Source of the DNA: Spirochaetia bacterium
Lineage (GTDB): Bacteria > Spirochaetota > Spirochaetia > DAHUYW01
Assembly: GCA_030041455.1 (NCBI GenBank)
Contig: JASHNV010000146.1
Span: 74,174 to 130,497, forward strand
Direction of reading: 5' to 3'
Length of the DNA stretch: 56,324 nt
Under the pieces are notes generated by a model. The model was not told the origin of the DNA. It saw only the letters and a program-made list of their open reading frames with translations, and searched no databases. Numbering within the stretch: position 1 is the first letter of the stretch; each line of letters opens with the position of its first letter. The translations under genes were made by a program, and so were the position numbers. This document shows positions 5,881 through 17,779 of the stretch, piece by piece.

Positions 5881-7070
5881 CGTCCGACGGGCTCCCGAGC
5901 GGCCTCGAGGCTGTCCACGAAGAAGACCGACGCCTGGGCGCCGCGGATGCCGGCTGCGAGCTCTTCCGCCCGCGAAGATTCCCCCGCCGCCATGCCGACT
6001 CGGTTGACGACGACCGCAAGCGTCTGCGAGGGGCTTGCCGGCGCGAGATCGAGGAGCCGGCCGTCGGCGAAGTGCGTAACGACGACCACCGTCGCGGTCG
6101 AAAGGCCGGCGGCTCGGTCGGCGGCGAGCGCGAGAGCCGGCGACGTCTCGGCGTCGAACTCGAGGCGGGCGAGCGACCGCCTGATCTCGTCGAAGGTGCC
6201 GGCGCGCTCGGAGCCGCTCGTCCGGCCGGTCGAGCGGAGCTTGGTCGGCACGCGGCTTGCGATGAACAGCCGCGCGAGCGACGCCGCGACGTCCGCCGAC
6301 GCGTCCTCGGTCTCGGCGGCCTCGTCGCGCGCGCCCGGCTTTCTCCGCGAGTCGAGGTAGATCGTGGCGCCGGGGAGAAGTCCCGCGCCCCATTCCTGGA
6401 GGTAGGGGATACCGGTCGCGAGAAACTTTCTCCAGGCGATGTGCCGCGCCGAGAACCCGTCGCGGTACCCGGTGAGGCCGTCGAGCTGGGAGAAATCTCC
6501 GTCCTTCGCCGAGCCGCCTCCGCTTCCCCCTCCGAGCCCATCCCTTGCCGAAGGGGCGAGGCGCAAATCGACCGCTCGAGGGTAGACGACGATCTCGCGC
6601 GGCGCAAGCGGCTTACGCACCGTGAGCCAGCCGAAGAGGTCCGCCACCTCGACGGACTGCAGGCCGAGGGAATGGACGCCCCGGCGTCGCGCCACGAACG
6701 GGATCACGTGCTCGATCTCGCCGAAGCCGGGAAGTGTCATCGCGATCTCGGGCGGTCCCTCCCCGGGATCGGCCGGCCAGCGCGAGAAGCGCACGCGAAG
6801 CAGGCTCGTGGGCGTCACGAACCGGTTCGTGATCACGAGGCGGTAGCGGACCGTTTGGCCGCGCTCAGGCTCGAGGGCGTCGCACTCGTCGGCGACTGTC
6901 ACCCCGGCGAGGGTGAGCGCGACGTGGACGATCGAGAGGATCGGGAGGAGCAGCATCACCGCGTAGATGAAGTAGTAGACGGGACCGACGTACATGCCGG
7001 CCAGGTAGAGGAGCACGAGCACGAAGGCGTAGAGCAGGACACCCGTGACCCGAACCGTAACGGCGCGCAT
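5877..7070 (-). CDS. DUF58 domain protein
   Basis: A 397-aa protein with two membrane helices at the N-terminus (about residues 5-50), a beta-rich section, the conserved DUF58 core (GDFSQLDGLTGYRDGFSARH, then WRKFLATG) and a von Willebrand-like C-terminal half. DUF58 proteins normally form an operon with a MoxR AAA+ ATPase and a TgpA-like transglutaminase. Here only the transglutaminase follows, and no MoxR gene is in the window. ATG 7070 is chosen over the in-frame TTG at 7106, because that TTG is part of a TTGACT -35 box. Confidence 0.85.
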   Translation of the reverse strand: MRAVTVRVTGVLLYAFVLVLLYLAGMYVGPVYYFIYAVMLLLPILSIVHVALTLAGVTVADECDALEPERGQTVRYRLVITNRFVTPTSLLRVRFSRWPADPGEGPPEIAMTLPGFGEIEHVIPFVARRRGVHSLGLQSVEVADLFGWLTVRKPLAPREIVVYPRAVDLRLAPSARDGLGGGSGGGSAKDGDFSQLDGLTGYRDGFSARHIAWRKFLATGIPYLQEWGAGLLPGATIYLDSRRKPGARDEAAETEDASADVAASLARLFIASRVPTKLRSTGRTSGSERAGTFDEIRRSLARLEFDAETSPALALAADRAAGLSTATVVVVTHFADGRLLDLAPASPSQTLAVVVNRVGMAAGESSRAEELAAGIRGAQASVFFVDSLEAAREPVGR

Positions 7071-7077
7071 CCCGATA

Positions 7078-7106
7078 AACGTACGAAAGGCCGTCGGACG
7101 AGTCAA
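7078..7106 (-). promoter_or_regulatory. Promoter of DUF58-transglutaminase operon, predicted leaderless
   Basis: TTGACT (7106-7101), a 17-bp spacer and TACGTT (7083-7078), with the ATG at 7070 only 7 nt beyond the -10. No Shine-Dalgarno sequence is present. Confidence 0.55.
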
Positions 7107-7189
7107 GAATTGCTGAGAAAATACTGCTGGACAGCGCGTCGACGGATCACTTAGACTACCTGCAGCCTGAAGCGCAAGGGAGGGTTGTA

Positions 7190-7888
7190 ATGGAAAGACC
7201 GATTCTTTTGCCGACGAGCGCGCGCGAGGAGACCTTCGCGGGGGTGAAATATTTCCTCGACGGCGAGCTCGTGCCGGTCCTCACGGTCGAGCTCGACGGC
7301 TCGACGAGCGTCTATTTCGAGCATCATATCCTGCTCTGGAAGAACACCGACGTCGCGATCGGCATCAAGGCGATGAAGGGCGCCGCCAAGCGGATGTTGG
7401 CCGGCATCCAGATTTTCATCACCGAGGCGAGCGGGCGCGGCCAAATCGCCTTCAGTCGGGACGGGGCGGGCCATATCGCGGCCGTCCACCTCAAGCAGGG
7501 CGAGGAGCTCCACGTGCGGGAGCACCAGTTCCTCGCGGCGACCGGCTCGGTCGGCTACAGCTTCGAGCGGGTGAAGGGCTTCGCCAACATGCTGATCGGA
7601 GGGACGGGCTTCTTCGTCGATAAGTTCAAGGGCGAGAGCGGAGACGGAATCCTCTGGCTGCACGGCTACGGGAACGTGTTCGAGCGGAAGCTCGCCGCGG
7701 GCGAGCAGATCGACGTCGAGCCGGGCGCGTGGCTCTACAAGGATCCCGGCGTGAAGATGGAGACGAACATCGCGCGCCTGTCCGCGGGTCTCCTCGCCGG
7801 CATGAACCTCGTCATGAACCGCTTCACCGGGCCGGGCCGCGTGGGCATCCAGTCCATGTACGTCGGCGTCGCGACCGAGGGCGATTGA
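7190..7888 (+). CDS. AIM24 / TIGR00266 family protein
   Basis: A 232-aa all-beta protein related to AIM24 (mitochondrial biogenesis family; TIGR00266 in bacteria). Typical segments are the early GSTSVYFEHHILLWKN, the repeated beta units with GRGQIAFSRDGAGHI, and HGYGNVFERKLAAGEQIDVE. No signal peptide or membrane helix is seen. The fold is tryptophan-attenuation-like; the biochemical role is unknown. An AGGGAGGG ribosome-binding site precedes ATG 7190. It is divergent from the DUF58 gene and followed 24 bp later by the SDR gene on the same strand. Confidence 0.85.
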   Translation: MERPILLPTSAREETFAGVKYFLDGELVPVLTVELDGSTSVYFEHHILLWKNTDVAIGIKAMKGAAKRMLAGIQIFITEASGRGQIAFSRDGAGHIAAVHLKQGEELHVREHQFLAATGSVGYSFERVKGFANMLIGGTGFFVDKFKGESGDGILWLHGYGNVFERKLAAGEQIDVEPGAWLYKDPGVKMETNIARLSAGLLAGMNLVMNRFTGPGRVGIQSMYVGVATEGD

Positions 7889-7912
7889 GGCGGGAGGGGA
7901 GCGGAATCGGAA

Positions 7913-8719
7913 ATGGAGTCGGGCGATAGGCCTCCGTTCGACCTCTCGGGACGGGTGGCGATGGTCACCGGCGCGAGCAGGGGCCTCGGCCAGTACCTCG
8001 GTCGAGCGCTCGCCCGCGCCGGCGCGGACCTCGTCATCACGAGCAGGAGTAAGGAGTCGCTCCGCCCCTTCGCGGCGGAGATCGAGGCGCTCGGGAGCAG
8101 GGCGCTGCCGCTCGCGCTCGACGTGCGGGACCACGCGAGCATCCGGGAAGGGGTCAAAGCGGCGTTCGGTCACTTCGGGCGGCTCGACATTCTCGTCAAC
8201 AACGCCGGATGCAACGTGAGGAAGCGGGCGGTCGACGTCACCTGGGACGACTGGAATCTCGTCCTTGACACGAACTTGAGGGGCGCCTTCTTCGTCGCCC
8301 AGGAGGTCGCCCGCGGCGGGATGATCGAGTCCCGCCGCGGGCGCATCATCAACGTCGGCTCGGAGACCTGCGTCGCGGGCTACGCCGGCCTCGGACCCTA
8401 CGGGGCGAGCCGCGGCGGCATCAAGCAGCTTACGATGAGCCTCGCCCACGATTGGGGGGAGTACGGGATCACGGTGAACTGCCTCGCGCCGGGCTGGTTC
8501 AAAACCGCCCAGAACGCCGTGCTCTATGAGGACTCAGGCTGGGTCGAGTACCTGAACGAGCGGATTCCGCTCGGCCGTCCCGGCGCGCCCGGCGATCTCG
8601 GCGGCGCGCTGCTCTTCCTCGCCTCCGAGGAGAGCGCCTACGTCACGGGGCAGACGCTCCTCGTCGACGGCGGGCTCTCGGTCGGCGCGCTCAGGGCGCT
8701 CCCGCGCGCGAGGGCCTAA
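7913..8719 (+). CDS. Short-chain dehydrogenase/reductase (gluconate 5-dehydrogenase-like)
   Basis: A 268-aa Rossmann enzyme. The cofactor loop is TGASRGLG (residues 19-26), followed by NNAG (97-100), the catalytic serine at S150 (NVGSE) and tyrosine at Y163. The residue four after the tyrosine, normally lysine in YxxxK, is arginine (R167, in PYGASRGG). The overall pattern, including VTGQTLLVDGG near the end, resembles the sugar-acid 5-keto reductase group, which interconverts gluconate-type sugar acids with NAD(P)H. Its stop overlaps the stop of the convergent gene by three bases. Confidence 0.85.
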   Translation: MESGDRPPFDLSGRVAMVTGASRGLGQYLGRALARAGADLVITSRSKESLRPFAAEIEALGSRALPLALDVRDHASIREGVKAAFGHFGRLDILVNNAGCNVRKRAVDVTWDDWNLVLDTNLRGAFFVAQEVARGGMIESRRGRIINVGSETCVAGYAGLGPYGASRGGIKQLTMSLAHDWGEYGITVNCLAPGWFKTAQNAVLYEDSGWVEYLNERIPLGRPGAPGDLGGALLFLASEESAYVTGQTLLVDGGLSVGALRALPRARA

Positions 8720-11461: not shown

Positions 11462-12727
11462 TCAATCCACGACGCGGTGGCGCAGCTGCATGATATCGCG
11501 AAAGAGCACGACCCCCTTTAAGAGCTTGGCCGTGTCGAGGATGGGCAGCGCCCGGTAGCCGTAGCGCTGGAAGGCGTCCTGCGCGTCGCGCAGCGTGTCG
11601 TCCGGCGACAGGCTCACGACCGAGCTGTTCATCACGTCCTTGAGCGCCCGTGAAGGCTCCCGGAGGAGGAGATCCCTGAGATCCACGATCCCGCAAATCC
11701 GGCGCTCCGGGGTGTGCACGAAGATATAGTGGATGAAGTCCATGCCCGCCGCAAGGGCCGGGAAGCCGTCGCGGACCGCGCCGATCCGCTCGTGCTCCGA
11801 GACCGAGATGACGCGGCCCGTCGCGTAGGAGAGGATCGCACTTTTCTCCTCGTGCAGGATCGCCTCGACCTTCGCTCGGAGATCCGCTTGAATGAGATCG
11901 AGTATCGCCTGCGCGTCCACGCGCGAAAGGGCCGACAATACGTCGGCGGCCTGCGGAGGGGTCATCTGGTCGACGAGCTCGGCGACCTCGCGCGGAGCGT
12001 GAAGGGAAATAATCCGACGCTGAAAGCTCGGTTCGATCTCCTCGAGAGTGTCCGAAGCGGTCTCCACGTCAAGCTGCTTGAGGAGCGTGGAGCGCTGGTC
12101 GTCGGACAGCTGCTCGATGATGTCGGCAAGATCCACCGGAGGCATGTCGGCGACGCTCTTCCTCAGCGCGTTGAGCTTGACGTCTCCTCGGAAGCTCCCG
12201 ATCGTCTCGGGCAGGGGCATGATGTAGACCCAGGAGACAAGGTCCTCTTCGACGTGAAGCAGGTCCGCCATCCAACCGAGGCGCAGACGTCGAAAGAAAA
12301 CGCGGCGTCCGAGATCGACCCCGCTCACGTAGAACTTGCGTCCCACCTGGAGAATCGTCACATCGAATACGACCGAGACTTCGCGGTCTTCCATGTCGAT
12401 CACTTTCTTATTCAAGATGAAATCCCGCGCAAGCAGATTCCCCTCCGCCAGGTTCGGCATGGCGAACTGCGCGAGCGACTCGATGGCGACATCGATGGCG
12501 CGTTCGCCGATGCCTATGACGTTTCCAATGGGAACCGACAGTTGGGGGTCGCCAAAGGAACGATGAACGAGGAAGTGCGTGACGTGCGGAATAGGAGCCC
12601 CCTCTTCAAAGATCAAGTCGGCGAGCTTTCCGATCCGTCTCCCGTTCCACATGACCTTTCTCCCGACGATGTCGCGCAGCCGGAATGTCCGGTTTGCGAC
12701 CGTGTTCGTTTCACTTGAGTTGCTCAT
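11462..12727 (-). CDS. PRC-barrel / MgtE-N / CBS domain protein, soluble partner of the Nramp-like transporter
   Basis: A 421-aa soluble protein. Two PRC-barrel-like beta segments (about residues 14-85 and 98-150, e.g. LRDIVGRKVMWNGRRIGKL) precede an MgtE N-terminal helical superhelix (about 188-290: PPVDLADIIEQLSDDQR and following repeats). A CBS pair follows (about 300-420, including LKDVMNSSVVSLSPDDTL). In MgtE channels the N and CBS domains sense cytosolic Mg2+ and gate the pore; here the MgtE membrane part is absent. It starts 13 bp after the transporter stop with a GAGGAG site, so the two are co-expressed. The likely role is a separate Mg2+-sensing regulator of that transporter; this is inference. 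Confidence 0.85.
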   Translation of the reverse strand: MSNSSETNTVANRTFRLRDIVGRKVMWNGRRIGKLADLIFEEGAPIPHVTHFLVHRSFGDPQLSVPIGNVIGIGERAIDVAIESLAQFAMPNLAEGNLLARDFILNKKVIDMEDREVSVVFDVTILQVGRKFYVSGVDLGRRVFFRRLRLGWMADLLHVEEDLVSWVYIMPLPETIGSFRGDVKLNALRKSVADMPPVDLADIIEQLSDDQRSTLLKQLDVETASDTLEEIEPSFQRRIISLHAPREVAELVDQMTPPQAADVLSALSRVDAQAILDLIQADLRAKVEAILHEEKSAILSYATGRVISVSEHERIGAVRDGFPALAAGMDFIHYIFVHTPERRICGIVDLRDLLLREPSRALKDVMNSSVVSLSPDDTLRDAQDAFQRYGYRALPILDTAKLLKGVVLFRDIMQLRHRVVD

Positions 12728-12740
12728 GTCTTTCTCCTCC

Positions 12741-14420
12741 TCAGTGTCCCGAAACGACGAGAACGAACTTAAAGACCAAAAGACCGACGAGAACCAGCAA
12801 ATAAAGACGAAGCATGAACAGCGCGAACTTCACGGCTCCCGTCATCTTGATGGTCGGAACGGCATAACGGCTTCTTACCTCCCGCAGACGAACGCTCAAC
12901 CCGGATATTTTCGAGAGCCAGCGTATCGGCAGGAACACGACGGAAAGCGCCCGGCCCACGGGTTTCAGCAGAACGAAGAGCGCCTTGCCGCCGGCGGCGG
13001 ACGCCTTCCCGATCCCCGACGCGAGCGGCTTGAGCCCGGCTCGAACCGGCCTAAACAGCAGCGATAGAATTGCGACGGCGGCAAGCGCCGCGACGACGAG
13101 GAAAGCCACGTTGCTTCCGAGGTCGGCAAGGAACGGGAGGGTCGGTCCGTTGCCGGAAAACCAGTCCGGAAAGATGGCGCTCAGCGCGTAGAGAGTCGAC
13201 ATGACGATGATCGCCGCGACGATAAAGGTCACGATGACGTTCTGGCCGACGGTGTTCCGCAGCCTGTCGCCCATGAGTTTCCTGTCGTTGAGGAGAAGAA
13301 GCAGGAACACGAGCGCCGAGGGAAGGAGCGTGACGGCGACCACCTGGACGAAGAGCGTGATAAGCACGAGAGGAGCCTTCGGGATCAACACGATCGAACC
13401 GGCAAGAGCGAGCAGCATGATGTAGACGACATAGAACCAAGGCGACTCTCGGATCTTGCGGTTCAGGGAATGCGCCCAACCGAAGACCTCGCCCCACGCC
13501 CACGAGGATGCGAGCGATATGCACACCGCTCCGAGGAGCCCGGCGTCGAACAGACCGATCGCCATGAAGGTTCCCACCCATTGGCTGGTTTTCATCATCT
13601 CTCGGGAGGCCTGCGCCGCGTCGTCGATGTTCTGGCCGTAGAGAAGCGTTCCCGTGGAGACAACGATAAAAATCGCGGTCAAGACGGTGAAGATCGATCC
13701 GATCAACGTGTCGATCTTGCTCCACCGGACGTCCTTTTCCTGCAGGCCCTTGTCGACGACGGCGCTTTGCTGGAAGAAGATCATCCATGGAGCGATGGTC
13801 GTGCCGATGTTGGCCATGATGAAAAAGAAGAACTGGTTGTTGAAGCCGCCGGGGATATTGGGCACCATGCCGCCGAATACCGCCCTTGGATCGGGATGGA
13901 CCATGAAGGCCATCGGGATGTAGATCAGGTTAAGAACGCAAAAGCCGATCGTGATTTTCTCCCACGTCCAGTACTTTCCGCTCAGGATGATCACGCTCAT
14001 CAGCACAAGGACCCCTAGCACGGTGAGCCACCGCGGTACGCCGAAGATTCCCATGGCCGAGGTCATGCCGCTAAACTCCGTGACCTGCGTAAGCCAGTCG
14101 GTCAGCACAAGATCTAGGAGCGAAAACCAGCCCCAAAACAGACCGAACGCTCCGAAAATGGCCTCCGCGTGGCCGTGCTTGGTGACCACGCCAAGCCGAA
14201 CGGTCATCTCCTGGACGAAGTAGGCCACCGGCAGAAGCAAGATGAGGAACCAATTGAGCTTGGAGCCGTATGAGGCGCCGGTAGCCGCGTACGTGGTGAT
14301 GCCGCCAGCGTCGTTGTCCGCGATCATGACGATGAATCCCGGACCTGCGACGATAAAGAAGAGAACGAGCGCTTTGCGAGAGCGCTGTACCCAATAGTAA
14401 ACTCTGGTGAAAAAGCTCAT
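12741..14420 (-). CDS. Nramp-fold divalent metal transporter of Mg-type (NRMT-like)
   Basis: A 559-aa membrane protein with about 11-12 helices and an extra hydrophobic C-terminal helix. The Nramp core is clear (AGPGFIVMIADNDAGG at the first helix). The metal-site signatures differ from Mn/Fe Nramps. The helix-1 DPGN motif reads DAGG (D37-G40, Asn replaced by Gly), and the helix-6 A-x-x-M-P-H motif reads TTIAPWM (A210, W212: Met to Ala, His to Trp). These are the replacements described for the Mg2+-transporting NRMT group, in which the soft methionine ligand is lost. The neighbouring MgtE-N/CBS gene supports magnesium. ATG 14420 has a GGAGG site. Confidence 0.85.
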   Translation of the reverse strand: MSFFTRVYYWVQRSRKALVLFFIVAGPGFIVMIADNDAGGITTYAATGASYGSKLNWFLILLLPVAYFVQEMTVRLGVVTKHGHAEAIFGAFGLFWGWFSLLDLVLTDWLTQVTEFSGMTSAMGIFGVPRWLTVLGVLVLMSVIILSGKYWTWEKITIGFCVLNLIYIPMAFMVHPDPRAVFGGMVPNIPGGFNNQFFFFIMANIGTTIAPWMIFFQQSAVVDKGLQEKDVRWSKIDTLIGSIFTVLTAIFIVVSTGTLLYGQNIDDAAQASREMMKTSQWVGTFMAIGLFDAGLLGAVCISLASSWAWGEVFGWAHSLNRKIRESPWFYVVYIMLLALAGSIVLIPKAPLVLITLFVQVVAVTLLPSALVFLLLLLNDRKLMGDRLRNTVGQNVIVTFIVAAIIVMSTLYALSAIFPDWFSGNGPTLPFLADLGSNVAFLVVAALAAVAILSLLFRPVRAGLKPLASGIGKASAAGGKALFVLLKPVGRALSVVFLPIRWLSKISGLSVRLREVRSRYAVPTIKMTGAVKFALFMLRLYLLVLVGLLVFKFVLVVSGH

Positions 14421-15724: not shown

Positions 15725-17779
15725 TCATGAGGTCGCCCCGTCTATGAGTCGCCGGACATACCACTTGATGAGATTCCAATTGTCGTTCTTCGGGAGCAGA
15801 ATCCACGCTCCAAGGTCGGAATCGCCTTCCGGTAGGATCGTCGTTTCGCCGCCATAACGATAAAGATTGGAATACGTGTGGTACAGAACATTTTGCATAT
15901 CAAGAATGTGTTGACCTGAGATTTGACTGTCTTTGTACCGATTATAGAACTGCAGCATTTCAAACGGCGTGAAGTTCGTGTCGACGTAGCGGTGCAGTAT
16001 CTGGATGAATGCGTACATCGAGCCGATGTTGGCAAGTCCCCCTTGCTCTATTTTCTCGCGAATCGCTCCTAAGATGACTTGTTGTCTGAGAGCGCGCACG
16101 AAATCCGAAGTGCTGTGGCGGGACCGGGCGATCCGCAGAACTTCGATGCCGCTCAAGTGGTGCATCCCTTTCGCGTAATTCAACGTCGACCAAACGCCGT
16201 TGTCGCGAACCCGGTAGGTCGGATCGGTGAGATCACTGGAGAGATAGACGTCGATTCCGCCCAGGAGATTCACGACGTCGACGAACGCATACTGGTCTAT
16301 GACGACATACTTGCGGATCTCAAGACCGGTAATGTCGGAAATTTCGCGCATCAACTCCTCGGGTCCGAACTTCTCATAGATCGAATTAATCTTTTCTCCT
16401 CTGTAATACAAATCGCGCGGCAGGCTGATCAGCACAATTCGACCGTCGCGCGGCTCCGCGTGAACCAGCATCATCGAGTCCGTATCGCCTTGATGTTCGC
16501 CGCAGATAACGAAATCAAGGCCAGACTGGCTCTCGACTAGCGGCCCGACACTCGGAATCGATTGGGGGATCGTCATTTCGCCGGACTCGATCTCGCTTTC
16601 GATGAAGGGGGTCTGAAGAGCCGCGATCGAAACATCGTCCGGATCGAGGATGAAGATGGTTCCATTTCCTTTCGCGACCGAGAAGGAGCCGATCCGCTTT
16701 CCGCCGGCGTCGGTGAAATCGTAGTGGGAGAAAAAATCGTCTTCCCGCGGGTGCGTATCAAATTTTATTCTTCGAGCGGCGAGTGTCGACATGAAGGTCT
16801 TGTCTTTGGTGAGTGCCTGGAGCTCGGCATTCGATCGAGCGACCAGCTTCTCTTGCGGTGTTCGAAAGTCGAAGGACCCGATCTCCGATACAAACTTGTC
16901 TTCGAATTCCGAAATGCGAGCATACTTCTTTGTTCCTGCCATGACCGCGAGAGAGCGCTCGTCAAGCTTGACCGATAACAGCGGCGTTCCGCCTCTCGTG
17001 AGGTACGCAACGTAGCTGTCCGCTTCTTCGACCGGCGGTTCCACCACAACATGCCGTATGCCGAGGTACCGACGGAGTCGAGGGTCGCGCAAGACGGACG
17101 TGAAACGCAATTCGGCGATTGCAAGATCGCGAAAGTGAGCATCGAGCGCGGGAGTCCGATTTCGAACGAAGTCCACGAAACGAGCACCGAGCGCCAAGTC
17201 CTGATATTGCTTGCCAAGAAAATCGGTGACTTTCACCGTTTGCGAAATTGGATCGATCGTGATCGTGAAATAGGTGGACCCGTCCCGGGTGAACTGGAGT
17301 GTTCGCGGCCCGGTTTCCGTTCGACGAAATCCTCCGACCCCGGTCGCTTCGCCGAGAAATGGGGATTTCAGCACGTCCTGGTACTTGGATTCGGAGATCT
17401 TCGTGTCGCGATCGCCAAGCAGAGCGTCAAGTCCGCTCAGAAAAAGGTTATCGTCCGGATCGTTCTCTTTCGCTTCGCTCGGGTACGGCTGAAATACAGG
17501 AAACGACTCTTGAGGGAGCTTCAGAACGCTTCGTGTCGAGTTTTCGTCTCGCGCCACGAGAAGGAGATTTTGCTTCAGAAAATCAATTTCACTTCCGTTG
17601 CTACGAAGCTCGGAAGTAATCATGTCATTTCGCTTTTCAAGTCTAACGGTAAGATTCAGGATCTCGAACGCCAATATGCCAAGAATGACCACGAGCGCGA
17701 GGAGGAGGGCTCCCGCGCCGACTCCCATGCCAATCGCGGCATTCCGTCGGGAAGCGAACCTCGCAACTTGATTCTTCAT
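15725..17779 (-). CDS. LytR-CpsA-Psr (LCP) family protein with a large N-terminal extension
   Basis: A 684-aa membrane-anchored protein. One N-terminal helix (about residues 17-42) is followed by a short coiled segment, about 330 residues of unrecognised beta-rich extracytoplasmic sequence, then an LCP domain from about residue 430. The LCP motifs are visible: DSMMLVHAEPRDGRIVLISL then PRDLYY, the loop KINSIYEKFGPE, the Tyr/Val core KYVVIDQYAFVDVVNLLGGI, and RIARSRHSTSDFVRALRQQ with conserved arginines. LCP enzymes transfer lipid-linked glycopolymers to the cell wall. The N-terminal region is much longer than usual. GC content is visibly lower than in flanking genes. Start 17779 has a weak AGGGAAC site. 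Confidence 0.8.
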   Translation of the reverse strand: MKNQVARFASRRNAAIGMGVGAGALLLALVVILGILAFEILNLTVRLEKRNDMITSELRSNGSEIDFLKQNLLLVARDENSTRSVLKLPQESFPVFQPYPSEAKENDPDDNLFLSGLDALLGDRDTKISESKYQDVLKSPFLGEATGVGGFRRTETGPRTLQFTRDGSTYFTITIDPISQTVKVTDFLGKQYQDLALGARFVDFVRNRTPALDAHFRDLAIAELRFTSVLRDPRLRRYLGIRHVVVEPPVEEADSYVAYLTRGGTPLLSVKLDERSLAVMAGTKKYARISEFEDKFVSEIGSFDFRTPQEKLVARSNAELQALTKDKTFMSTLAARRIKFDTHPREDDFFSHYDFTDAGGKRIGSFSVAKGNGTIFILDPDDVSIAALQTPFIESEIESGEMTIPQSIPSVGPLVESQSGLDFVICGEHQGDTDSMMLVHAEPRDGRIVLISLPRDLYYRGEKINSIYEKFGPEELMREISDITGLEIRKYVVIDQYAFVDVVNLLGGIDVYLSSDLTDPTYRVRDNGVWSTLNYAKGMHHLSGIEVLRIARSRHSTSDFVRALRQQVILGAIREKIEQGGLANIGSMYAFIQILHRYVDTNFTPFEMLQFYNRYKDSQISGQHILDMQNVLYHTYSNLYRYGGETTILPEGDSDLGAWILLPKNDNWNLIKWYVRRLIDGATS

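Follow-up and report, generated by a model that had tools for sequence, protein, structure and literature searches.

Of the known classes of bacterial Mg2+ importers, NRMTs were recognised most recently. Shin et al. introduced the name NrmT in 2014 and demonstrated that members from Clostridium acetobutylicum transport Mg2+ and are under M-box control (PMC4072509). Most NrmT members adjoin a gene for a homologue of the MgtE N-terminal domain, and cytoplasmic feedback by this homologue was proposed in the same work (PMC4072509). The sensor gene has been tested directly only in the A. capsulatum pair: there, NrmT restored Mn uptake completely and Mg uptake in part, which makes it mainly a Mn transporter, and co-expression of the partner gave no added effect (PMC4072509). 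EleNRMT, from Eggerthella lenta, also carries Mn2+, and NRMTs share a published signature, DxxG in helix 1 and TxxA/T in helix 6 (PMC8806188).

Here, we analyse an NRMT locus in a stretch of 56,324 nucleotides from a Spirochaetia bacterium (the window). An earlier note on this DNA had read the locus as a two-component Mg2+ uptake system in which the MgtE gating module works in trans on a different transporter fold. The adjacency of the two genes is real, but the in-trans sensor is not a new idea, because Shin et al. published both the pairing and the regulation (PMC4072509); the lack of effect of the A. capsulatum partner weighs against it, and the reading overlooked a third component. This component is a small one-helix protein that forms part of the transporter chain in the window and is encoded separately in the closest homologues. 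The small protein, its clade-wide distribution and its fusion in the window are the new element of this system. With a probability of roughly 0.6, we take the window operon to be an NRMT-type magnesium-uptake operon that combines a carrier, a small transmembrane (TM) subunit and an MgtE-like sensor.

The carrier and its detached sensor

The ORF map confirmed two genes on the minus strand (Table 1). The partner ORF starts 13 bp downstream of the transporter ORF, and a GAGGAG motif lies a little 5′ of its ATG. We found no conserved neighbours beyond the operon and no match for phage carriage of the operon. The upstream gene (window positions 15725–17779, minus strand) looks by eye like a member of the LytR-CpsA-Psr family, with one N-terminal TM helix.

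Table 1 Features of the NRMT operon in the window
Feature	Position	Strand	Evidence
NRMT ORF, 559 aa: NRMT core (aa 1–422), linker with extra TM helix, C-terminal small-protein domain	12741..14420	-	Pfam Nramp, PDB, model
Helix 1 metal site, D37-A-G-G40 (NRMT DxxG; canonical Nramp, DPGN)	14301..14312	-	Alignment
Helix 6 metal site, G206-TTIAPW212 (NRMT TxxA; canonical Nramp, AxxM-PH)	13785..13805	-	Alignment
Extra TM helix in fusion linker, aa 438–456	13053..13109	-	Hydropathy; model helix 434–455, low confidence
Fused small-protein domain, aa 505–559 (contains REVRSRYAVPTIKMTGAVKFALFMLRLYLLVLVGLLVFKFVLV), one TM helix, LRxYL motif	12744..12908	-	HMM, model
Soluble MgtE-N/CBS protein without channel, 421 aa	11462..12727	-	ORF map, Pfam, alignment
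PRC barrel 1, aa 13–80	12488..12691	-	Pfam PRC, 19.5 bits; beta pattern
PRC-like barrel 2 (likely), aa 95–166	12230..12445	-	Predicted structure; weak profile match to barrel 1
MgtE_N domain, aa 195–292	11852..12145	-	Pfam, 68 bits; aligns with Thermus MgtE 2yvy
CBS pair, aa 300–417, stops ahead of MgtE plug helix	11477..11830	-	Pfam, 54 bits; alignment; model

The transporter has a Pfam Nramp match of 248 bits. In the alignment, helix 1 reads ADNDAGG and helix 6 reads GTTIAPWM, bearing out the substitutions that the earlier note had seen, DAGG for DPGN and Ala-Pro-Trp for Met-Pro-His. DAGG and TTIA satisfy the NRMT signature, and the canonical Nramp/MntH ligands DPGN and MPH are absent. The best sequence match in the PDB is EleNRMT (7qia), with 204 bits over the whole core as against 51 bits for the Deinococcus Nramp DraNramp, and EleNRMT is also the top fold match (TMt 0.88) of an AlphaFold2 model of the transporter (pLDDT 84.8, pTM 0.83). 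In a tree of 55 proteins, which included two canonical Nramps from the window genome itself, the NRMTs, with the window protein and EleNRMT among them, split from the canonical DPGN/MPH Nramps at 100/100. The window transporter is an NRMT and not a Mn/Fe Nramp; the alignment at helices 1 and 6 and the tree thus agree with the class proposed at first reading. The accompanying claim, that loss of these ligands is the mark of Mg2+ transport, fits the NRMT signature, but the ligand change alone is no proof of Mg2+ specificity, because the A. capsulatum pair showed mainly Mn transport.

Two further sets of Nramp-like genes were seen. A class represented by G000:C52:3055–4185 (L014), L015 and L120, in the window genome and its relatives, has helix 1 VDAAS and helix 6 GAVIMPF, with Ser for Asn, Met retained and Phe for His, and forms its own long branch beside the NRMTs. 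By eye, contig G000:C35 (L001, L002, L017, L019) holds two canonical, divergently oriented Nramps; the ORF that separates them resembles a metal-dependent regulator, and one of the two has a universal-stress-protein-like ORF as its neighbour.

The partner carries an MgtE N domain and a CBS pair but no channel, and here ORF map and Pfam agree with the earlier reading. The MgtE channel domain (PF01769) is absent from the partner and from the whole window genome, the partner is without the plug helix, and its MgtE_N domain is the only one in that genome. In the predicted structure, two small beta-rich segments precede MgtE_N. The two had been called PRC barrels. The first scores 19.5 bits in the window, below the Pfam cut-off of 21.2 bits, and 50 of 55 homologues match Pfam PRC at E ≤ 0.01. 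A second PRC barrel is likely, judging from the predicted fold and a weak mutual profile match (E 0.0012, probability 19%). The suggested survey for conserved adjacency found transporter and partner genes together in 79 of the 80 closest homologues, the 80th being cut by a contig end, and in all nine same-phylum homologues. Open frames of 900–1200 aa around some NRMTs in Acidobacteriota, candidates for sensor–transporter fusions, were ruled out, as they hold two proteins in different frames.

To characterize the sensor, we mapped its residues onto Thermus MgtE, taking the Mg2+ sites from PMC5882242 and the ATP contacts from PMC5529423. D95 (Mg6) and D247 (half of Mg4) are kept and E59 (Mg7) appears as Asp; D91 (Mg4) is replaced by Pro, and both Mg5 ligands are lost. 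In the CBS pair, the ATP contacts Y170, R187, D188 and N203 are identical and F227 is replaced by Tyr. Because half of Mg4 and all of Mg5 are lost, the partner may read ATP as much as Mg2+, or may be chiefly an ATP sensor.

A small one-helix protein tied to the carrier

Between transporter and sensor, all 80 of the closest homologues carry a third, small ORF of 55–74 aa with one TM helix and an LRxYL motif (the copy in L046 is truncated at a contig end). It typically starts 12–16 bp past the transporter stop and ends about 10 bp ahead of the partner start, at times with a 4-bp overlap, and a Shine–Dalgarno-like motif precedes 62 of the 80 starts. The consensus is KIREINxRYxxPxIxMSxxVKxSLLxLRxYLxxLVxLLxYKFxTL, with Y, P, L-R-x-Y, K and F near-invariant. 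Close pairs indicate purifying selection on the ORF (dN and dS, for example, 0 and 0.20, 0.03 and 0.27, 0.06 and 0.28, and 0.09 and 0.50; the comparison is saturated in more distant pairs). By the positive-inside rule, the protein is predicted to lie with its N terminus inside and its C terminus outside. It has no relative in Pfam, NCBIfam or the PDB, and we found no description of it, or of PRC barrels in the sensor, in the literature searched, outside which most subscription papers fall.

The operon is present across many bacterial and archaeal phyla and on conjugative plasmids. The three-gene form occurs on conjugative IncHI-type plasmids (L105 and L121), from Citrobacter freundii in activated sludge and from a Serratia marcescens isolated from blood, where its neighbours are a gene for a P-type ATPase and one for an ArsR/winged-helix regulator; neither plasmid record annotates the small ORF. 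The order of the genes varies. In clade A it is NRMT–small–sensor. Ten Acidobacteriota loci (L125–L130 and L133–L136) have NRMT–sensor–small, with the small protein shortened to about 36–46 aa, and six loci (L138–L141, L106 and L107) have NRMT–small without the sensor. Sensor–NRMT without the small ORF is found in same-phylum and Acidobacteriota loci and on one Alicyclobacillus plasmid.

This distribution follows the transporter tree. Among 54 proteins, a single change, supported at 97/89, separates 30 small-positive from 20 small-negative NRMTs, where small-negative denotes an HMM miss at E ≤ 0.05 within about 1.5 kb, which a diverged or distant copy could also produce, and some distant small-positives score low. 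The single-change split holds in 200 of 200 bootstrap trees, and none of 500 shuffles reached as low a count. EleNRMT falls on the small-negative side, its exact place being modestly supported. The small protein thus tracks the lineage of the transporter and not that of the sensor, as a transporter subunit would be expected to do, which suggests that it is one. More broadly, we see about even odds that one of the two major NRMT clades uses a previously unrecognised one-helix subunit with an LRxYL motif, encoded by a gene of 36–74 codons beside the carrier or fused to it, and that in its best known branch this subunit and the PRC/MgtE_N/CBS sensor make up a three-part Mg2+/ATP-gated carrier.

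Short hydrophobic or one-helix proteins such as KdpF and MgtS are accessory subunits or regulators of ion transporters. The small protein might accordingly be a separate regulator or stability factor, as MgtS is for MgtA, co-transcribed with the transporter by chance and only incidentally fused to it in the window. One-helix regulators of Mg transporters are known from MgtS, and the small-protein-free NRMT clade, EleNRMT included, functions without the protein; however, it is co-inherited with the transporter clade through a single change, it is fused in the window, and plasmid NRMTs have a similar C-terminal extension (described below), all of which count against such independence, and we consider a separate regulator rather unlikely.

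Substrate and regulation

We scanned the full set of 80 close homologues in the genome collection, several of whose loci end early upstream, against Rfam. An M-box Mg2+ riboswitch lies 300–400 bp upstream of the transporter in four of them (L058, L076, L077 and L090; E 3e-29 to 5e-33); at the window locus the scan returned no M-box or other Rfam element. The window genome, which is 95% complete, has no CorA and one MgtA-type P-type ATPase above cut-off. Absence of CorA was rejected as a general trait of operon-bearing genomes, since 6 of 10 other genomes that carry the operon have CorA above cut-off. The four M-boxes, together with the lack of CorA and of an MgtE channel in the window genome, support Mg2+ as the substrate of this NRMT clade. 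By analogy, Mg2+ would be the substrate of the window protein as well.

One locus holds a second M-box. In L077, from a Geobacteraceae metagenome-assembled genome, it spans 6793–6960 (143 bits), directly upstream of a gene at 6974–8513 that by eye bears a signal peptide and resembles an outer-membrane porin, and that is followed by a cation-diffusion-facilitator-like gene. An Mg2+ riboswitch ahead of an outer-membrane protein would be unusual.

The carrier could instead be an importer of Mn2+, or of divalent ions broadly, with the partner answering to Mn2+ or ATP in place of Mg2+, a reading that Shin et al. put forward for A. capsulatum (PMC4072509). The full rescue of Mn uptake against the partial rescue of Mg uptake by the A. 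capsulatum NrmT, the carriage of Mn2+ by EleNRMT and the missing half of Mg4 and whole of Mg5 in the window partner are all compatible with this. Yet the M-boxes precede four operons of exactly this clade, the window genome already has two canonical DPGN Nramps while it is without CorA and MgtE, and the A. capsulatum sensor lies upstream of its transporter, which is the order of the small-protein-free clade. On balance, we judge a Mn2+ or broad-range carrier slightly less probable still than a separate role for the small protein.

We therefore favour magnesium uptake and propose the following scheme. The carrier, whose metal site has none of the Asn, Met and helix-6 His residues of canonical Nramps, would transport Mg2+ in hydrated form, and probably also Mn2+, with no coupling to protons, by analogy with EleNRMT. 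The small one-TM domain would most likely pack on the carrier as a subunit. The soluble sensor encoded downstream, with its N domain and CBS pair, probably dimeric and with the PRC-like barrels in front, would dock on the carrier from the cytoplasmic side and, when Mg2+ and ATP are high, slow uptake in the way that the same module does inside MgtE. We infer these physical contacts and the direction of regulation from the features described above.

The fused carrier and its relation to known systems

Fusion of the small gene to its C terminus makes the window transporter about 135 aa longer than its homologues; the small-protein HMM matches the fused domain at 72 bits (E 9e-22). In the same-genus genome the small ORF is a separate gene, and no other clade-A locus is fused. 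Hydropathy places a TM helix and a basic stretch in the linker, and this helix is absent where the small protein of homologues is separate. By returning the chain to the cytoplasm, the linker helix would let the small helix keep the N-in orientation that its basic N-terminal part predicts, a topology that fits a genuine fusion. NRMTs on Alicyclobacillus, Rhodococcus and Paraburkholderia plasmids have the same order of TM helix, linker and LRGYL helix; the HMM finds two of these three fused domains at low scores (15.3 and 9.3 bits), and that of Rhodococcus was recognised by eye.

The small domain is modelled by AlphaFold2 with pLDDT 91–93 over aa 511–540, and the pTM of the full chain, above what is expected from the core alone, hints that the predicted small helix is placed on the core. 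The alignment used for this prediction was without the plasmid rows; its rows with a separate small protein are two neighbouring ORFs joined through the stop, an alignment device that makes no claim of read-through. That the fusion is an assembly or sequencing artefact, the small gene being really separate as in the sister species, is improbable: the assembly is fragmented (199 contigs), in the only other genome of the genus the small ORF is separate, and no further clade-A fusion is seen, but the junction is no simple frameshift, with 80–90 extra codons that include a topology-restoring TM helix, and distant NRMTs share the TM12–linker–TM13 layout.

A missed, clade-tied subunit could explain the weak or Mn-biased heterologous transport of some members of that clade. 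It also makes the question of trans regulation testable with defined constructs, for which the natural fusion in the window provides carrier and subunit as a single chain.

Among described systems, the NrmT operons of C. acetobutylicum and A. capsulatum (Ca_c0685/Ca_c3329 and ACP2976-2977) are similar in that an NRMT stands beside an MgtE cytosolic-domain homologue, some are under M-box control, and regulation in trans has been proposed. The text of that paper mentions no PRC domains, no CBS domains and no third small membrane gene, and the A. capsulatum operon has its sensor upstream, whereas that of the window is downstream. The partner resembles the cytosolic domain of Thermus thermophilus MgtE (2yvy/5x9g) in its N domain and CBS pair, in D95 and E59 (as Asp) and in the ATP contacts; it differs in having no channel or plug helix, in the loss of half of Mg4 and of Mg5, and in the added N-terminal PRC-like barrels. 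EleNRMT (PDB 7qia and others) shares with the carrier its fold, 34% identity and identical NDAGG and IGTTIAPWM segments; in contrast to the window protein, it groups, with modest support for its exact place, with the small-negative NRMTs, and the solved structure is of EleNRMT alone. Like KdpF and MgtS, the LRxYL protein is short and hydrophobic and is encoded alongside an ion transporter or acts on one; unlike them, it has the LRxYL motif, gave no match in Pfam, NCBIfam or the PDB, and is tied to one NRMT clade.
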